Shown: positions 8,588-38,886 of the stretch, piece after piece
How the letters are laid out: each line of letters starts with the position of its first letter
Numbering within the stretch: the first letter of the stretch is position 1
NCBI GenBank assembly: GCA_016234925.1
Contig: JACRNI010000008.1
Location: 1-38,980 of the forward strand
Origin: Deltaproteobacteria bacterium
GTDB taxonomy: Bacteria; Desulfobacterota; GWC2-55-46; UBA9637; GWC2-42-11
Direction: 5' to 3'
DNA length: 38,980 nt
Notes under the pieces: model-generated
The model's input: only the letters and a program-made list of their open reading frames with translations
Told to the model about the DNA's origin: nothing
Database searches by the model: none
Translations under genes and position numbers: made by a program

Positions 8588-8742
8588 ATGCTGTTCTACT
8601 TATGACGCTGTGTATAGCAGATAATATCTTTGAAATCAAGGATTGTTTCGGACAGAAAGAAAACAACTTGATTAGGGATATATAGGTATGCTACAAAAGA
8701 GCCAGAATAAAATAACAGTAATTATTTGAATTTACAAACAAT

Positions 8743-8819
8743 CGGGGCGTGGCTCAGTCTGGTAGAGCACTGCGTTCGGGACGCAGGGGCCGGAGGTTCG
8801 AATCCTCTCGCCCCGACCA
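8743..8819 (+). tRNA. tRNA-Pro (anticodon CGG)
   Basis: The cloverleaf is complete. The acceptor CGGGGCG pairs with CGCCCCG, the anticodon stem CTGCG/CGCAG encloses loop TTCGGGA (anticodon CGG), the T arm is GGAGG-TTCGAAT-CCTCT, and the CCA end is encoded. The last 21 nt are repeated twice downstream (8999-9019 and 9198-9218), the pattern expected where elements integrate at a tRNA 3' end. Confidence 0.95.
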
Positions 8820-9019
8820 TTAAAAACAGGGGTTAGGGATTAGGTGTTAGGGGTTAGTTAGACATTAAATAAAGGCAAAAGAGGATTCGAAGCGAGGCAG
8901 CCGCCGAACAAATGTGAGGAAAAGCAGACAGGATGTCTGCGGCAGGCTGCCGAGGTGAGCCTACGCAGACTTTGGCAGGAAGCCAAAGGCGTAGTAGGCG
9001 AATCCTCTCGCCCCGACCA
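8820..9019 (+). mobile_element. 200-bp tRNA-Pro 3'-end module 1
   Basis: The module starts directly after tRNA-Pro and ends in an exact copy of the tRNA 3'-terminal 21 nt including CCA (8999-9019). Its first ~63 nt (a GGGGTTAGGGATTAG-type spacer ending ...GGCAAAAGAG) are repeated identically in module 2. The rest is a GC-rich structured segment inserted between the two halves of a T arm: GAGGATTCGA before, CGAATCCTC after. It has no ORF. It is called mobile because the tRNA 3' end repeat looks like an attachment core; no integrase is in the window. Confidence 0.55.
8881..9007 (+). ncRNA. Candidate structured RNA in module 1 (unrecognised class)
   Basis: Predicted pairings are: P1 8881-8889 with 8999-9007 (9 bp perfect), P2 8896-8902 with 8945-8951, P3 8924-8929 with 8935-8940 capped by AGGAT, P4 8960-8966 with 8989-8998, and P4a 8970-8976 with 8982-8988 capped by AGGAA. 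A 21-nt unpaired linker (8903-8923) between P2 and P3 is 17/21 identical to that of module 2, while the stems differ but still pair. The strand and whether it is transcribed are inferred from the adjacent tRNA. Confidence 0.5.
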
Positions 9020-9218
9020 TTAAAAACAGGGGTTAGGGATTAGGTGTTAGGGGTTAGTTAGACATTAAATAAAGGCAAAAGAGAGGTTCGAAGCCAGTTT
9101 CACGCCGAGTAAATGCGAGGATAAGTCCGCAGGGATGCGGACGAAAGTGAAACTGGCCGGGTCTGAAGGAAAAAGCAGGATGCTTTTGACTGAAGACCGA
9201 ATCCTCTCGCCCCGACCA
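9020..9218 (+). mobile_element. 199-bp tRNA-Pro 3'-end module 2
   Basis: The arrangement matches module 1: an identical spacer from 9020 to about 9083, a divergent structured segment, then an exact copy of the tRNA 3'-terminal 21 nt (9198-9218). The 5' T-arm half here reads GAGGTTCGA, closer to the intact tRNA-Pro T arm than module 1. Confidence 0.55.
9083..9206 (+). ncRNA. Candidate structured RNA in module 2 (unrecognised class)
   Basis: Predicted pairings are: P1 9083-9090 with 9198-9206 (one bulge), P2 9093-9103 with 9147-9157 (11 bp), P3 9125-9130 with 9137-9142 capped by AGGGAT, and P4 9160-9164 with 9194-9198 plus an inner stem 9171-9176 with 9182-9187 capped by AGGAT. The linker 9104-9124 is 21 nt, the same length as in module 1, with GCCGA, AAATG and GAGGA conserved. 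Every stem shows compensatory change relative to module 1. Confidence 0.5.
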
Positions 9219-9283
9219 AAAAACAGAAATAAGAAATCAGAGATTAGGAATTGGCAAGAAAAAATTAGAGGCAAGAGAGGATT

Positions 9284-9433
9284 AGCAGGCTGTTCCAAAA
9301 TGCAGGGGTTCATGGGACAGATAAATAACTTTCTTTCTTACCAATCCCGATTTATTGAACCCGATATCTCGGGCTTGATGAATCAAGCCCCTACGATGCT
9401 TTAGGGTAGAATGGAATTTTAGGACAGCCTGAT
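9284..9433. repeat. 150-bp inverted-repeat element before lysS
   Basis: The left end AGCAGGCTGTTCCAAAAT and the right end ATTTTAGGACAGCCTGAT are inverted repeats. The interior has stacked palindromes (AACCCGATATCTCGGGCTT and CTTGATGAATCAAG). It contains no ORF. Just upstream (about 9244-9283) is sequence resembling a worn third copy of the module spacer. Nothing else is seen between 9219 and 9453. Confidence 0.6.
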
Positions 9434-9453
9434 TAGTTGTTAGAGGGGAAAAA

Positions 9454-10962
9454 ATGGAACAAAGAAGCGAAGAAGAATTAAACAGGATAAAAAAACTTGA
9501 AGGTTTGAAAGGCATAGGGATAAATCCATTTCCTAATGACTTCAAGGTCAAAGATACAACCGCTGATATTATAAACAAATTCGGCAGTCTTACAAAAGAA
9601 GAACTGGATGCAAAAAACGATGCAATTACAGTTGCAGGGAGGATTATTGCAATCCGGGACTTTGGCAAGGCATCTTTCATTCATATTCAAGACAGGCTTG
9701 GCAAGATTCAGACATATATTAAGAAAGATATAATCGGAGATGAGGCGTATAATCTATACAAACATATTGATATCGGCGATATAGTTGGAATTTCTGGCAA
9801 GGTCTTTCGCACAAAGACAAATGAATTAACGATTGAGGCAAAAGAATTAAGACTCCTTACAAAATCTTTAAGGCCTTTGCCTGAAAAATGGCACGGTCTG
9901 ACTGATGTTGAGACAAGATACCGTCAGAGGTATGTTGATTTAATTGTCAACCAAGAGGTTCGGGATGTATTTCTAAAAAGGGTAAAAATCATTCAGCTCA
10001 TCAGGCAGTTTTTAAATAAAATAGATTTTATAGAGGTTGAAACGCCGATGATGCAGTCAATCCCCGGAGGCGCGGCTGCAAAGCCGTTCAAAACCCATCA
10101 CAATGCGCTTGGGATGGACTTGTATTTAAGGATTGCGCCTGAATTATATCTTAAAAGGCTTGTTATAGGCGGTTTTGAAAGGGTTTATGAAATAAACAGA
10201 AACTTTAGAAACGAGGGCATATCAACACAGCACAACCCTGAATTCACAATGCTTGAGTTTTACCTTGCACACGCAACATTTGAAGATTTAATGGATTTGA
10301 CTGAAGAGATGATTGCATCCGTTGCAAGAGAAATCTGCGGCACATTAAAGATTGAATATCAGGGCAAAGAAATAGATTTAACCCCACCTTGGCAGAGGAT
10401 AAGCGTTAAAGATGCAATATTGAAATACAGCAGCGCCAGCGAAGATATTTTTAATGATAAAAATAAGGCAATAAGATTTGCAAAAGAGTTGAATTTAAAG
10501 ATGCCTGTCCCTGCAGGCTTTAAGCAGGGATTGGAAGGTTTAAGCCACGGCAATATTATTTTAGAAATCTTTGAGCATGTTGCAGAGCCTAAATTTATCC
10601 AGCCTACATTTGTAACCCATTATCCCCTTGATGTATCCCCGCTTTCAAGAAAGACGGAGAAAGACCCGACAACCGTTGACAGATTTGAACTCCTTGTCGC
10701 AGGCAGAGAAATCGCAAATGCGTTTTCAGAATTAAATGACCCGATTGACCAGAAAGAAAGATTTGTCCAGCAGGTAAAAGAAAAAGAGGCAGGCGATGAA
10801 GAGGCGCACCTTATGGATGATGATTTTATAAGGGCCCTTGAATATGGAATGCCGCCGACAGCAGGAGAAGGCATAGGCATAGACAGGCTTGTGATGCTTT
10901 TAACAAATTCAGCGTCAATAAGAGATGTTATATTGTTCCCGCAGTTGAGAGAAAGGTTATAG
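9454..10962 (+). CDS. lysS: lysyl-tRNA synthetase, class II
   Basis: Charges tRNA(Lys) with lysine. It has an N-terminal OB-fold anticodon domain (about residues 55-165, VAGRIIAIRDFGKASFIHIQD) and a class II catalytic core with motif 2 FRNEGISTQHNPEFTMLEFY and motif 3 GIGIDRLVMLLT. The 502-aa length is normal to slightly long. A 24-bp palindrome at 10507-10530 adds VPAGFKQG in a variable loop before the conserved EIFE..EPKFIQPTF block. The start ATG at 9454 follows an AGAGGGG stretch that can serve as a ribosome site. Confidence 0.95.
   Translation: MEQRSEEELNRIKKLEGLKGIGINPFPNDFKVKDTTADIINKFGSLTKEELDAKNDAITVAGRIIAIRDFGKASFIHIQDRLGKIQTYIKKDIIGDEAYNLYKHIDIGDIVGISGKVFRTKTNELTIEAKELRLLTKSLRPLPEKWHGLTDVETRYRQRYVDLIVNQEVRDVFLKRVKIIQLIRQFLNKIDFIEVETPMMQSIPGGAAAKPFKTHHNALGMDLYLRIAPELYLKRLVIGGFERVYEINRNFRNEGISTQHNPEFTMLEFYLAHATFEDLMDLTEEMIASVAREICGTLKIEYQGKEIDLTPPWQRISVKDAILKYSSASEDIFNDKNKAIRFAKELNLKMPVPAGFKQGLEGLSHGNIILEIFEHVAEPKFIQPTFVTHYPLDVSPLSRKTEKDPTTVDRFELLVAGREIANAFSELNDPIDQKERFVQQVKEKEAGDEEAHLMDDDFIRALEYGMPPTAGEGIGIDRLVMLLTNSASIRDVILFPQLRERL
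10507..10530 (+). repeat. 24-bp coding palindrome, copy in lysS
   Basis: The halves are GTCCCTGCAGG and TAAGCAGGGA, in codon phase 0, encoding VPAGFKQG at about residues 352-359 of LysS. Confidence 0.8.
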
Positions 10963-12300: not shown

Positions 12301-12420
12301 GGGTTCTGGGGGTCTAGTGGTCAAGGGTTCTAGGATTTAAGGTAGCCGCACTTTATGCCTGCGGTAAAACGCAACCGTAAAGGTTGCGACTACCAGAACC
12401 CTTGAATCCTAGACCCCTTA
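12301..12420. repeat. Nested palindrome with 56-bp double-hairpin element, copy 1
   Basis: The core at 12341-12394 starts GGTAGCCGCA and ends GACTACC, with two internal hairpins (the second is CGCAACC-GTAAA-GGTTGCG). Around it, GGGTTCT/GGTCTAG/TCAAGGG words on the left pair with CAGAACCCTTGAATCCTAGACCCC on the right. It occupies most of the lolC to cyclic-nucleotide gene spacer. Confidence 0.75.
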
Positions 12421-13672: not shown

Positions 13673-13675
13673 GAA

Positions 13676-13761
13676 GTGATGAGTTAAAGAGTTGGAGAGT
13701 TATGGAGTTAAAACTCCTAAACTCCTAAACTCCTAAACTCCTAAACTCCTAAACTCCTACG
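13676..13761. repeat. Octamer array and hairpin before lolD
   Basis: Left-hand GAGTT words (GAGTTAAAGAGTTGGAGAGT) face six perfect tandem copies of AAACTCCT (13711-13758), giving a long hairpin that ends three bases before the lolD start. No Shine-Dalgarno is present before that ATG. Confidence 0.75.
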
Positions 13762-14460
13762 ATGGAACTTATAAAGGCAGAAGGGCTTCACAAAATATAC
13801 GGAAATAAAGAAAAGAAGGTTGAGGTTCTTAAAGGCATAGACATTTCAATTGCAAAGAAAGAGACTGTTGCTATTGTCGGAGCATCAGGTGTTGGGAAAA
13901 GCACATTCCTGCACATACTTGGCGTTTTGGACAGGCCTACAGCTGGCGGCCTGTTTTACAACGGCAATGCCATATTTAAGCAAAGCGATAAACAATTGGC
14001 ATATTTCAGAAATAAAAGAATTGGTTTCGTATTTCAATTTCACCATCTCCTGCCGGAATTTACAGCCGTTGAAAATGTGATGATGCCGCTGCTCATCGCA
14101 GGTATTGATAACAGGGCAGCCGCTGCTCAGGCGGAAAAACTTTTGACAGAGGTCGGATTAAAGGATAGATTAACGCATAAGCCGGGCGAATTGTCAGGCG
14201 GAGAGCAGCAAAGGGTCGCAATAGCAAGGGCGCTTATCCAAACCCCGGATGTGCTTCTTGCCGATGAACCGACCGGCAATCTTGACACACATACAGGGGA
14301 TGAAGTATTTAATCTTTTGCTTGAATTCAATAGGGATAAAGATATTACAATAGTTGTTGTTACGCACAACGAGCGTCTTGCTGATAAGATGTCAAGAAAG
14401 ATAACTATGGTTGACGGCAGAATATATGAGGATACAGGAAAGACAGAGTTTAAGAGTTGA
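13762..14460 (+). CDS. lolD: lipoprotein-releasing ABC transporter ATPase LolD
   Basis: This cytoplasmic ATPase drives lipoprotein release by the Lol permease encoded 1.5 kb upstream. At 232 aa it has Walker [10 protein letters not shown] (about 40-48), the Q-loop in [13 protein letters not shown] with the LolD-type [10 protein letters not shown] sequence, signature LSGGEQQR, Walker [12 protein letters not shown] and the switch His in VVVTHN. The start ATG directly follows octamer repeats and lacks a Shine-Dalgarno, so its translation may be unusual. Confidence 0.93.
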
Positions 14461-14520
14461 AGAGATATAGAGTTTAGGAGTAAAAACTCCTCAACTCCTT
14501 AACTCCATAATTCATTTTGA
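14461..14520. repeat. Word-repeat hairpin between lolD and bamA
   Basis: AGAGTTTAGGAGT words on the left pair with ACTCCTCAACTCCTTAACTCC on the right. The bamA ribosome site AAGGAG lies just after the hairpin. Confidence 0.55.
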
Positions 14521-17220: not shown

Positions 17221-17320
17221 AAAAAGTTTTGGAGTTTAAGAGTTAAGGAGTTTAGGAGTTAGAAATTAATCGTTTAACTCCTCAACTCTCTAACTCCTTT
17301 ACTCTGAAACTCAAATTAAT
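17221..17320. repeat. Word-repeat hairpin between bamA and ompH
   Basis: GGAGTTTAAGAGTTAAGGAG words face TTAACTCCTCAACTCTCTAAC words, forming a long imperfect stem. The ompH ribosome site TAGGAGG follows outside it. Confidence 0.55.
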
Positions 17321-17871: not shown

Positions 17872-18900
17872 ATGGAAAAGAGCCTGAATGAACTTGCTAA
17901 AATTGTCAATGGCGAGGCAATTGGCCATGGTTCTGTATTGATAAACGGCGCTGCAGGCATAGAAGATGCTAAATCCGGGCAGATAACATTTATTGCAAAT
18001 CCGAAATATGCGCATCTTTTGTCAAAGACTTTAGCATCTGCTGTTATTGCCTCGCCTGATATTGCCCAAACATTAAAGGGTAAAAATATACTCTGCGTTA
18101 AAAATCCTTATCTTGCATTTGCAAAGGTGCTTAAGGAATTCACTCCAATTGAAAAATTATATCAGGGCATACATCCAAACACAGAAATCAACTCTGATGT
18201 TCAAATTGGTTCATCTCCCTCAATATATCCGAATGTGTATATTGATGAAGGCGCAAGGATTGGTTCAAGGGTTGCATTATACCCAGGGGTTTATGTGGGT
18301 AGAGATGTTCATATAGATGATGATGCGCTTATATATTCAAATGTATCAATAAGGGAAAGGTGCAAAATCGGCAAGAGGGTTATTATTCACTGTAATTCAG
18401 TGGTCGGCAGCGACGGCTTCGGTTTTGCAAAGGATGGGTCAAAACTTTATAAAGTTCCGCAAACTGGCATAGTTCGCATTGAGGATGATGTTGAGATAGG
18501 CGCATGCGTGACAATAGACAGGGCGACTCTTGGCGAGACAGTGATAAAACGCGGCACAAAGATAGACAACCTTGTTCAGATTGCCCACAATGTTGCAATT
18601 GGCGAGGATTCTATCATTGTTGCGCAGGTTGGCATATCAGGAAGCACAAAGATAGGAAACAGGGTTACGCTTGCAGGTCAGGTTGGCGCTGCAGGACATA
18701 TTGAAATCGGCGATGATATTGTGATTGGCGCAAAATCTGGTGTTACAAAAGATTTATGTGAAAAAGGTGTATTCTCCGGGTTTCCTGCGATTCCACACAA
18801 AGACTGGCTCAAGGCAGTAAACATATTTGCGAAACTGCCTGAAATGAGAAAGACTATACTGGATTTGGAAAAAAGGGTAAAGGAGTTGGAAAAAGATTAA
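17872..18900 (+). CDS. lpxD: UDP-3-O-(3-hydroxyacyl)glucosamine N-acyltransferase
   Basis: Third enzyme of lipid A synthesis; it adds the N-linked hydroxyacyl chain. At 342 aa it has an N-terminal uridine-binding domain (about 1-100), a left-handed parallel beta-helix of hexapeptide repeats (about 100-300) and a C-terminal helix (LPEMRKTILDLEKRVKELE). The catalytic His is in VQIAHNV at residue 239, the same number as in the E. coli enzyme. The GFGFAKDG segment is also conserved. Confidence 0.95.
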   Translation: MEKSLNELAKIVNGEAIGHGSVLINGAAGIEDAKSGQITFIANPKYAHLLSKTLASAVIASPDIAQTLKGKNILCVKNPYLAFAKVLKEFTPIEKLYQGIHPNTEINSDVQIGSSPSIYPNVYIDEGARIGSRVALYPGVYVGRDVHIDDDALIYSNVSIRERCKIGKRVIIHCNSVVGSDGFGFAKDGSKLYKVPQTGIVRIEDDVEIGACVTIDRATLGETVIKRGTKIDNLVQIAHNVAIGEDSIIVAQVGISGSTKIGNRVTLAGQVGAAGHIEIGDDIVIGAKSGVTKDLCEKGVFSGFPAIPHKDWLKAVNIFAKLPEMRKTILDLEKRVKELEKD

Positions 18901-19020
18901 GAGGTTAAGAGATTAAAAGGCTAATAGACTAAAAGGTTAAGAGGTTAAGAGATTAAGAGGTTAAGAGGTTAAAAACCTTTTTACCTTTTAACCTTTTTAC
19001 CTCTTCATCTTTTCACCTTC
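18901..19020. repeat. Word-repeat hairpin between lpxD and fabZ
   Basis: AGAGGTTAAGAGATTAAAAG words repeated about eight times face AAACCTTTTTACC/TTTTAACC words. The fabZ ribosome site GGAGG lies just outside the hairpin. Confidence 0.6.
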
Positions 19021-22604: not shown

Positions 22605-22700
22605 AGGGGTCAAGGATTCGAGGTAGCCGCAGGCTTTATGCCTGCGTTAAAACGCAACCGTAAAGGTTGCGGCTACCAGAACCCTTGATCCCTTGAATCC
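22586..22700. repeat. Nested palindrome with 56-bp double-hairpin element, copy 2
   Basis: The core at 22622-22677 has outer stem GGTAGCC/GGCTACC and inner hairpins CGCAGGC-TTTAT-GCCTGCG and CGCAACC-GTAAA-GGTTGCG. It is flanked by GGGATCAAGGG / CCCTTGATCCC words. It fills the lpxB-msbA spacer. Confidence 0.8.
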
Positions 22701-22709
22701 TATTTTCTT

Positions 22710-36060: not shown

Positions 36061-36173
36061 GGGTTCTAGGGTTCAAGGATTCAAGGGTTCTGGTAGTCGC
36101 AACCTTTACGGTTGCGTTTTAACGCAGGCATAAAGCCTGCGGCTACCTTAAATCCTAGACTCCTCGAACCCTC
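36061..36173. repeat. Nested palindrome with 56-bp double-hairpin element, copy 3 (inverted)
   Basis: The core at 36092-36147 is the reverse complement of copies 1 and 2 (GGTAGTCGCAACC start, GGCTACC end). GGGTTCTAGGGTTCAAGG words on the left pair with CCTAGACTCCTCGAACCC on the right. The tolQ ribosome site GGAGG lies outside it. Confidence 0.8.
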
Positions 36174-38180: not shown

Positions 38181-38312
38181 GAAGACAACATTCTTGCGAA
38201 TGTTTAATTGGAAATTGAAGATTGCAGACTGTAAATTTTAAAATTAAAGCAATTCAATTTGCAATTTAGAATTTACAATTTTCATTTTACAATTCTCACG
38301 AAGTGAGTAAAG
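38181..38312. repeat. ~130-bp tRNA spacer repeat, copy 1
   Basis: AATTGGAAATTG...TTAAAATTAAAG...CAATTC words form a long AT-rich hairpin and end in TCTCACGAAGTGAGTAAAGG. A closely similar sequence follows the second tRNA-Thr (38753-38886), ending identically before tuf. Confidence 0.75.
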
Positions 38313-38397
38313 GGAGAGGTACCCGAGTGGCCAAAGGGGGCAGACTGTAAATCTGCTGGCGCTGCCTACGGAGGTTCGAATCCTCCCCTCTCCACCA
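38313..38397 (+). tRNA. tRNA-Tyr (anticodon GTA)
   Basis: A class II tRNA with long variable arm: acceptor GGAGAGG/CCTCTCC, anticodon loop ACTGTAAAT centred on GTA, variable arm GGCGCTGCCTAC, T arm GGAGG-TTCGAAT-CCTCC, encoded CCA. Confidence 0.95.
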
Positions 38398-38675: not shown

Positions 38676-38752
38676 GCCCATGTAGCTCAGTTGGCAGAGC
38701 ACTTCCTTGGTAAGGAAGAGGTTCACCGGTTCAATCCCGGTCATGGGCTCCA
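38676..38752 (+). tRNA. tRNA-Thr (anticodon GGT)
   Basis: Acceptor GCCCATG/CATGGGC, anticodon stem CTTCC/GGAAG with loop TTGGTAA (GGT), T loop TTCAATC, encoded CCA. It is the last tRNA before tuf. Confidence 0.95.
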
Positions 38753-38886
38753 GACAACATTTTTACAAATATTGAATTGGAAATTGTAGGTTGCAAATTA
38801 TAAATTTTAAAATTAAAGAAATTCAATTTACAATTTAAGATTTACAATTTTCAATTTACAATTCTCACGAAGTGAGTAAAGGGAGG
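38753..38886. repeat. ~130-bp tRNA spacer repeat, copy 2 (tuf leader)
   Basis: A paralogue of 38181-38312 with the same AATT-rich hairpin words and identical TCTCACGAAGTGAGTAAAGG end. Its last bases supply the tuf ribosome site (GGGAGG). Confidence 0.75.

Follow-up and report, generated by a model that had tools for sequence, protein, structure and literature searches.

A multicopy, apparently undescribed structured RNA family adjoining tRNA genes, with a possible role as a dispersed CsrA sponge

Our analysis describes element E, the name we give to a family of modules of about 130 nt that is almost certainly a structured RNA family. It occurs in multiple copies and in several phyla, adjoining tRNA genes. 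We found no account of such a structured RNA downstream of tRNAs in the open-licence literature, and the family is apparently undescribed. The whole explanation that we propose, a tRNA-adjoining family whose loops bind CsrA and whose copies form a dispersed sponge, stands evenly balanced between right and wrong on the sequence comparisons presented here. The locus that led to it lies in a window of 38,980 nucleotides (the whole stretch of DNA that was analysed) on contig C18 of a 2.4-Mb draft genome.

Two structured modules behind tRNA-Pro(CGG)

The host gene of the array is tRNA-Pro(CGG) at 8743-8819 (ARAGORN and Rfam); this gene and all array features below lie on the plus strand. Its 3' part, from T-loop position 56 to the CCA end (8799-8819, CGAATCCTCTCGCCCCGACCA), is the source of P1 and of the tail, and an exact copy of it closes each of the two modules, A and B. 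Furthermore, a repeat search showed that an 85-bp unit made up of the tRNA 3' part and the spacer to P1 (8799-8883) recurs at 8999-9083 with 100% identity.

Module A extends over 8880-9019. Its 5' arm (AGAGGATTCGAA, 8880-8891) forms the 5' strand of P1 and is the antisense of tRNA positions 54-64, as judged from the sequence and from position statistics. P2 (8896-8902/8945-8951) encloses P2a and P3 within 8896-8951; P2a (8904-8909/8914-8919) carries a tandem G.A step and P3 (8924-8929/8935-8940) the loop AGGAU. P4 (8959-8964/8994-8999, spanning 8959-8999) contains an inner stem (8970-8976/8982-8988) with the loop AGGAA. The 3' tail (8999-9019; repeat and tail statistics) is a copy of the tRNA-Pro 3' part ending in CCA, and its first ~9 nt are the P1 3' strand. 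Module B (9081-9218) has the 5' arm GAGAGGTTCGAA as P1 5' strand (9081-9092; cmsearch match 9081-9208), P2 (9093-9103/9147-9157) enclosing P2a and P3 (9093-9157), P2a with its tandem G.A (9105-9110/9115-9120), P3 with the loop AGGGAU (9125-9130/9137-9142), P4 with tandem G.A steps (9160-9164/9194-9198, spanning 9160-9198), a P4 inner stem with the loop AGGAU (9171-9176/9182-9187) and, as tail, the second copy of the tRNA-Pro 3' part (9198-9218). In both modules, P2 to P4 were delimited by folds and covariation.

Beyond module B, the stretch 9219-9287 consists of spacer and a further 5' arm remnant (AGAGGATT, then unrelated sequence). By eye it is similar to the spacer that separates tRNA-Pro(UGG) from module A' on contig C72, and it is probably a truncated third unit. 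The array is flanked by a 508-aa ORF upstream on the minus strand and a 502-aa ORF downstream, which we take to be gatB-like and lysS-like, respectively. A promoter and terminator scan of 8600-9460 gave nothing above chance.

The window also holds other repeats. Intergenic arrays of an 8-nt unit (AACTCCTA/AGAGTTTA type) lie at 13674-13764, 14446-14515, 17225-17312 and 18891-18986; they are present in both orientations and can thus pair mutually. A 68-nt intergenic repeat at 12351-12418, 22634-22701 and 36068-36135 (copies 90-96% alike) is likewise found in both orientations, at a spacing of about 10-24 kb. Directly 3' of tRNA-Thr(UGU) and tRNA-Thr(GGU), a 134-nt repeat (38183-38316 and 38752-38885, 89%) is AT-rich, palindromic and not related to element E.

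The first-pass annotation had proposed that the two modules share a covarying fold, with stems that differ in sequence yet remain paired. Both modules are present where it placed them and fold well beyond shuffled sequence (z of -4.9 for A and -6.7 for B, 0/200 shuffles being as good). P2, P3 and P4 do differ in sequence while remaining paired, and a second locus adds compensatory changes: type A P3 reads GCAGAC/GTCTGC in the window and GCCCTAC/GTAGGGC behind tRNA-Pro(UGG) on contig C72 (G000:C72). Two points of the proposed layout had to be corrected. The 21-nt linker, described as conserved and unpaired, is not unpaired and corresponds to the hairpin P2a plus its 3' junction. This hairpin has the form GCCGASC-loop-GSGAGGA with a tandem G.A step, the strict tandem-G.A form being kept in 135 of 174 copies of the genome-search series, and its inner pair covaries between G-C, C-G and A-U. 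P1, in turn, is paired as proposed but has no covarying sequence of its own, P1 and the tail being taken from the adjacent tRNA-Pro; 8999-9019 and 9198-9218 are repeats of 8799-8819.

A consensus from 20 copies (MAFFT) comprises P1, P2, P2a (CCGASC-loop-GSGAGG), P3 with the loop CANGGANG, the P2 3' strand, P4 (alternating Watson-Crick and tandem G.A steps, loop AGGAN), the P1 3' strand and the tRNA tail. P2a contains a tandem G.A step, as P2 often does. P2, P2a and P3 meet in a junction, and P4 comes after it. In this alignment, which was not fitted to the model, 85.6% of cells were paired compared with 70.3% after shuffling and at most 41.0% when slid. Both sides changed in 26 of 41 pairs, and the covariation score was 0.436 (shuffled 0.166, slid at most 0.094). 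For 107 further copies, gathered by a pattern in which parts of both P2a and the P3 loop are fixed, and aligned by fitting to the model, pairing was 86.0% (shuffled 59.3%, slid at most 44.4%), both sides changed in 39 of the 41 pairs and the covariation score was 0.515 vs 0.129. Since this set was pattern-fixed and model-fitted, conservation of its P2a and P3-loop columns is no evidence. The apparent covariation of P1 across copies follows from which tRNA a copy adjoins, and P1 should be set aside in covariation arguments because its match is acquired at the target tRNA. By these alignments, the covariation of P2 to P4 is genuine and that of P1 is target-derived. The case carries a caution, namely that stem "covariation" can arise from target copying rather than from compensatory mutation.

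Rfam 15 gave no match, in agreement with the first-pass annotation, which did not recognise the modules as a known riboswitch, ribozyme or intron, and at the gathering threshold and up to an E-value of 1 no known class was found for element E. Weak matches to sX4 and YrlA at a relaxed threshold were rejected, as they cover the tRNA part. A hammerhead-like core (GAUGAG...CGAAA around P3) in some copies was also rejected: inspection showed no conservation of the catalytic CU, and GAUAAG or GAAAAG stands in other copies.

The first-pass annotation had called for a covariance model and an Rfam check, and had named two outcomes that would speak against it, a known Rfam class or a lack of homologues and covariation beyond the two copies. 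Neither was found, since Rfam gave no match, the homologues run to hundreds and covariation was upheld, being strong in P2, P2a, P3 and P4. The reading as a functional RNA, or a folded-DNA substrate, outside the known classes is thus supported, and RNA and folded single-stranded DNA may both fit the sequence of E.

Copies, host tRNA genes and spread

This genome carries six copies of E, including modules A and B. A second A-B pair lies 3' of tRNA-Pro(UGG) on contig C72, and B-type copies lie 3' of tRNA-Ser(CGA) on C33 and of tRNA-Leu(UAG) on C145; the third tRNA-Pro (GGG, C93) has no element E. The bodies of the Ser and Leu copies are near-identical to B, and their P1 and tail match the Ser or Leu tRNA, reading GGGGAGTTGAA...CAACTCCCCCCTCTCGCACCA in the copy behind tRNA-Leu. 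With the covariance model, E was found in 37 of the 63 class genomes, with as many as 14 copies in one genome, and in 21 of 297 sampled genomes of the phylum. A degenerate DNA pattern matched at least 119 stretches in named genomes, foremost in Spirochaetes (including Treponema and Brucepastera), as well as "Deltaproteobacteria" metagenome bins and Deferribacteres (Seleniivibrio and Mucispirillum). The 107 matches aligned by the model came from the named-genome stretches and two viral contigs; of the viral-contig matches, the model upheld one (L212) and not the other (L211). An origin from phages or plasmids was rejected because the phage and plasmid collections contained no match to E. Cultured carriers include Brucepastera parasyntrophica, Mucispirillum schaedleri and a Treponema isolate, and these make E testable.

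A tRNA, tmRNA or tRNA-Sec gene lies upstream on the same strand within 700 nt for 174 of 220 distinct elements and for 38 none does; 8 elements at a contig edge or with an unparsed T-loop were unscored, which leaves 174 of 212 judged. E lies a median of 49 nt from the tRNA, and its hosts comprise 33 tRNA or tmRNA kinds. For 172 elements the nearest tRNA precedes E on its own strand; for none does the nearest tRNA lie upstream on the other strand. The 3' end of E is a copy of the host tRNA from position 56/57 to its end, with a mean identity of 0.86 between the tail and its upstream tRNA and of 0.54 when it is compared with tRNAs of a different isotype. The 5' arm is antisense to positions 54-64 of the host tRNA. 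It is complementary to the host at position 57 in 98% of cases (other tRNAs 72%), at T-loop position 59 in 98% (43%), at 63 in 81% (40%) and at 64 in 57% (24%) and fades beyond, positions 54-56 being no evidence because the copies were aligned on the conserved GAA. In copies with a diverged tail, 28 positions of the arm agree with the tRNA and 10 with the tail. No compensatory change between arm and tail was seen where the tail had diverged from the tRNA, so the matching of P1 stems from acquisition at the target. Together these comparisons show that P1 and the tail are set by the host tRNA.

E also stands behind tmRNA (L226 and L238, in G026 and G029) and tRNA-Sec (L225), with P1 and tail copied from those genes; any T-arm can thus be a target. 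At five loci in Deltaproteobacteria bins (L093, L102, L126, L150 and L166), an E body lies between or before protein genes with no tRNA nearby, and a tRNA-free lineage of E may exist.

The arm data could also be explained by a cis-acting element on the tRNA precursor that steers tRNA folding, processing or termination, with CsrA incidental. In that case the arm would base-pair with the co-transcribed tRNA at positions 54-64, or the tail would serve as a second tRNA 3' half. The arm does reach the antisense of T54-C56, which is absent from the E tail, it fits the tRNA where tRNA and tail differ (28 vs 10), and strand and order are constant in nearly all copies. However, the arm bias is expected if both ends were copied at insertion and then drifted, and E lies behind some tRNAs alone, which differ between congeners. 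Terminators often lie between tRNA and E, and tRNA-free copies exist. We consider such an element improbable. An intron-like or trans-splicing ribozyme, with the 5' arm as a guide across the T-loop junction 56|57, would account for an arm that is complementary to both sides of the junction joined to the E 3' end. Yet among the copies read E never lies inside a tRNA gene, Rfam gave no match in E to a group I/II intron core or a known ribozyme, and most carriers have no reverse transcriptase, all of which makes a ribozyme very improbable.

E bodies very probably spread between tRNA genes, with arm and tail changing to match. In a tree of the bodies, which has few columns and many forks without resolution, the four B copies of this genome (Pro, Pro, Ser and Leu) group with one copy from G002 in a supported clade, which indicates movement between tRNA genes. 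By the look of this tree, the Tyr, SelC and Ser-GCU loci within one genus are vertically inherited. The junction between tRNA-Leu(UAG) and tig is filled here and empty in the two nearest genomes, and at the Ser(CGA) site G018 has an element where its congener G022 has none. Some copies are in tandem, truncated or nested. One composite, an E body inside the P2/P2a region of another (L051, L256, L273, L274 and L279), recurs behind different tRNAs in several genomes.

A direct repeat of the tRNA 3' end flanks E and the tRNA is intact, as for an integrative element at a tRNA site. The E body of about 110 nt cannot encode an integrase, and none lies beside the copies read. RVT_1 was found in 10 of the 63 class genomes. 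Reverse transcriptase is absent from most carriers, including the complete genome G018 with its 8 copies, and retrotransposition by a resident enzyme was rejected for this reason. As a weaker inference, E may spread as a non-autonomous element via a DNA-level event at T-loop C56|R57, which would duplicate the tRNA 3' part by machinery other than a resident reverse transcriptase. On arrival behind a tRNA, the element would gain an antisense T-arm copy of ~11 nt at its 5' end and the sense tRNA 3' part at its 3' end.

Spread of this kind raises the possibility that E is a selfish, MITE-like repeat targeted to tRNAs, of no gain to the host, whose fold (as single-stranded DNA or RNA) and loops would be recognised by a recombinase or transposase. 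Rickettsia palindromic elements and MITE-like repeats are about 100-150 nt, non-coding, foldable and multicopy, with no transposase of their own, and E is similarly short, non-coding, foldable and multicopy. Presence and absence between relatives, spread between tRNA genes, the occurrence of copies in tandem, truncated or nested, the target-derived ends and persistence in csrA-less genomes are all consistent with a selfish repeat. Unlike MITE-like repeats, however, E is confined, in a single orientation, to sites 3' of tRNA-like genes, takes its ends from the target and has internal helices that covary across phyla. Furthermore, no recombinase is encoded by or seen beside E, and arm and tail are copies of the target in opposite orientation, which fit no transposition product familiar to us. 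Some loci (Tyr, SelC and Ser-GCU) are inherited vertically, and the loop sequence tracks csrA presence. A purely selfish repeat is in our view unlikely, though a serious rival.

GGA loops and csrA

SELEX gave RUACARGGAUGU as the consensus for CsrA, its GGA lying in a hairpin loop that AC/GU closes (PMC7652899). The P3 loops ACAGGAUGU, GCAGGGAUGC, GCAUGGACGC and GCAAGGACGC fit this consensus. Most SELEX ligands have shorter stems (PMC7652899) than the 6-7 bp of P3. The P4 loops of Spirochaetes are often without GGA (CACGAUG). csrA was identified in this genome by Pfam within flgL-csrA-fliW, its neighbours being presumably flgL and fliW.

In the class, csrA was found in 26 of 37 carriers and 11 of 26 non-carriers of E (63 genomes, p 0.04), a weak co-occurrence in which absence of csrA or E is uncertain for any one genome, many being drafts. 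Among the named Spirochaete and Deferribacteres carriers, the only genomes counted there, csrA is present in 41 of 44. The link to CsrA is informative for the split in loop type alone, compared with this weak co-occurrence. P3 loops of the ANGGA type are present in 29 of 33 csrA+ genomes vs 4 of 14 csrA- genomes (Fisher p 1.3e-4, kinship ignored), and a lineage effect may lie behind the association.

Among called P3 loops in csrA+ genomes, ANGGA accounts for 97 of 146, and copies with GGGA tetraloops also occur there. In the csrA-less genomes G019, G032, G038, G040, G042 and G043, GGGA tetraloops make up 17/17 called P3 loops. In two csrA-less genomes of another family, G158 and G320, the stems P2, P2a and P3 persist along with P1 or what is left of it, and the P3 GGA has been lost (CTGAT and TTTAT in G320, CTTGG in G158); in the complete genome G280 the P3 and P4 tips are rearranged. 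Several near-complete carriers are without csrA, mostly with altered loops. The exceptions, with ANGGA and no detected csrA, are G033, G056, G258 and one copy in G124; the assemblies of G056 and G258 are fragmented drafts, and both have congeners that are csrA+.

We read this pattern as loss of csrA followed by relaxation of the loops, which is what the CsrA-site reading predicts. The GGA loops of E are thus rather likely to be CsrA ligands. The body of E persists without csrA and so must have another reason to exist, either a second function or selfish persistence, and FliW, which is present here, may suffice to control CsrA. That a sponge is the main role of E is a proposition we rate a little short of even. 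Two Spirochaete copies (L130 and L143), both from genomes without a csrA match, carry similar insertions of 50-70 nt in the P3 loop beside the GGA.

A proposed growth-coupled sponge and comparison with known systems

In 66 of 178 copies E starts at most 30 nt from the tRNA end, which leaves no room for a promoter of its own, so that these copies are read with the tRNA if at all. A T-run resembling a tRNA terminator lies between tRNA and E in 75 of 178 copies, and read-through would be needed there. We propose that E would be transcribed with the tRNA, or via read-through of its terminator, and that processing would trim the transcript to an RNA closed by P1. The P3 and P4 loops would bind CsrA; the two CsrA-type loops are about 45 nt apart, and one CsrA dimer could bridge both. 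With 6 to 14 copies per genome, the summed sites would approach the number in CsrB, and the copies together could act as a dispersed CsrB. Such a sponge would be linked to growth rate because it would rise with tRNA transcription. Tentatively, then, E may represent a class of tRNA-targeted elements that takes its closing stem from the target and has been domesticated as a growth-coupled CsrA sponge.

In E. coli, the tRNA 3' external transcribed spacer 3'ETS-leuZ is a sponge that comes from a tRNA precursor; it lacks structure and base-pairs with sRNAs. E would likewise be a regulatory sponge from the 3' side of a tRNA precursor, but it is folded and conserved, and its proposed partner is a protein. 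Similar to CsrB/CsrC and RsmX/Y/Z of Gammaproteobacteria, E has GGA in C-G closed hairpin loops with a flanking A and offers several sites per genome. Most of the carriers counted have csrA, and several near-complete ones do not. In contrast to these RNAs, E has about two GGA sites per RNA and reaches many only when summed over copies. It is also multicopy, tied to tRNAs and found in other phyla, and its conserved body is three-dimensional-looking, with tandem G.A steps. Rfam families for CsrB and RsmX/Y/Z gave no match to E at the gathering threshold or up to an E-value of 1. Characterised RNA antagonists of CsrA come mainly from Gammaproteobacteria; none has been characterised in Geobacter, for example, where FliW has been proposed instead (PMC13407953). 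If E binds CsrA, it would fill this gap outside Gammaproteobacteria and provide a sponge in phyla without a described CsrB-type RNA.

The copying of the tRNA at both ends of E suggests a mechanism by which a T-arm segment becomes duplicated and inverted, and we know of no system that works in this way. As with islands and prophages at tRNA 3' ends, E is bounded by a direct repeat from T-loop to CCA and leaves an intact tRNA. Unlike these, E is geneless, its repeats can reach beyond the tRNA and into the terminator, and an inverted copy of a T-arm segment lies at its other end. In the region at about 1863.8-1912.5 kb of G018 contig C1 (L222 and L223), a tRNA-Pro(GGG)-E pair was observed, and about 49 kb from it lies a 5'-truncated tRNA-Pro 3' half followed by a near-identical E. 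The two look like the ends of an integrated island whose attachment region carries E.
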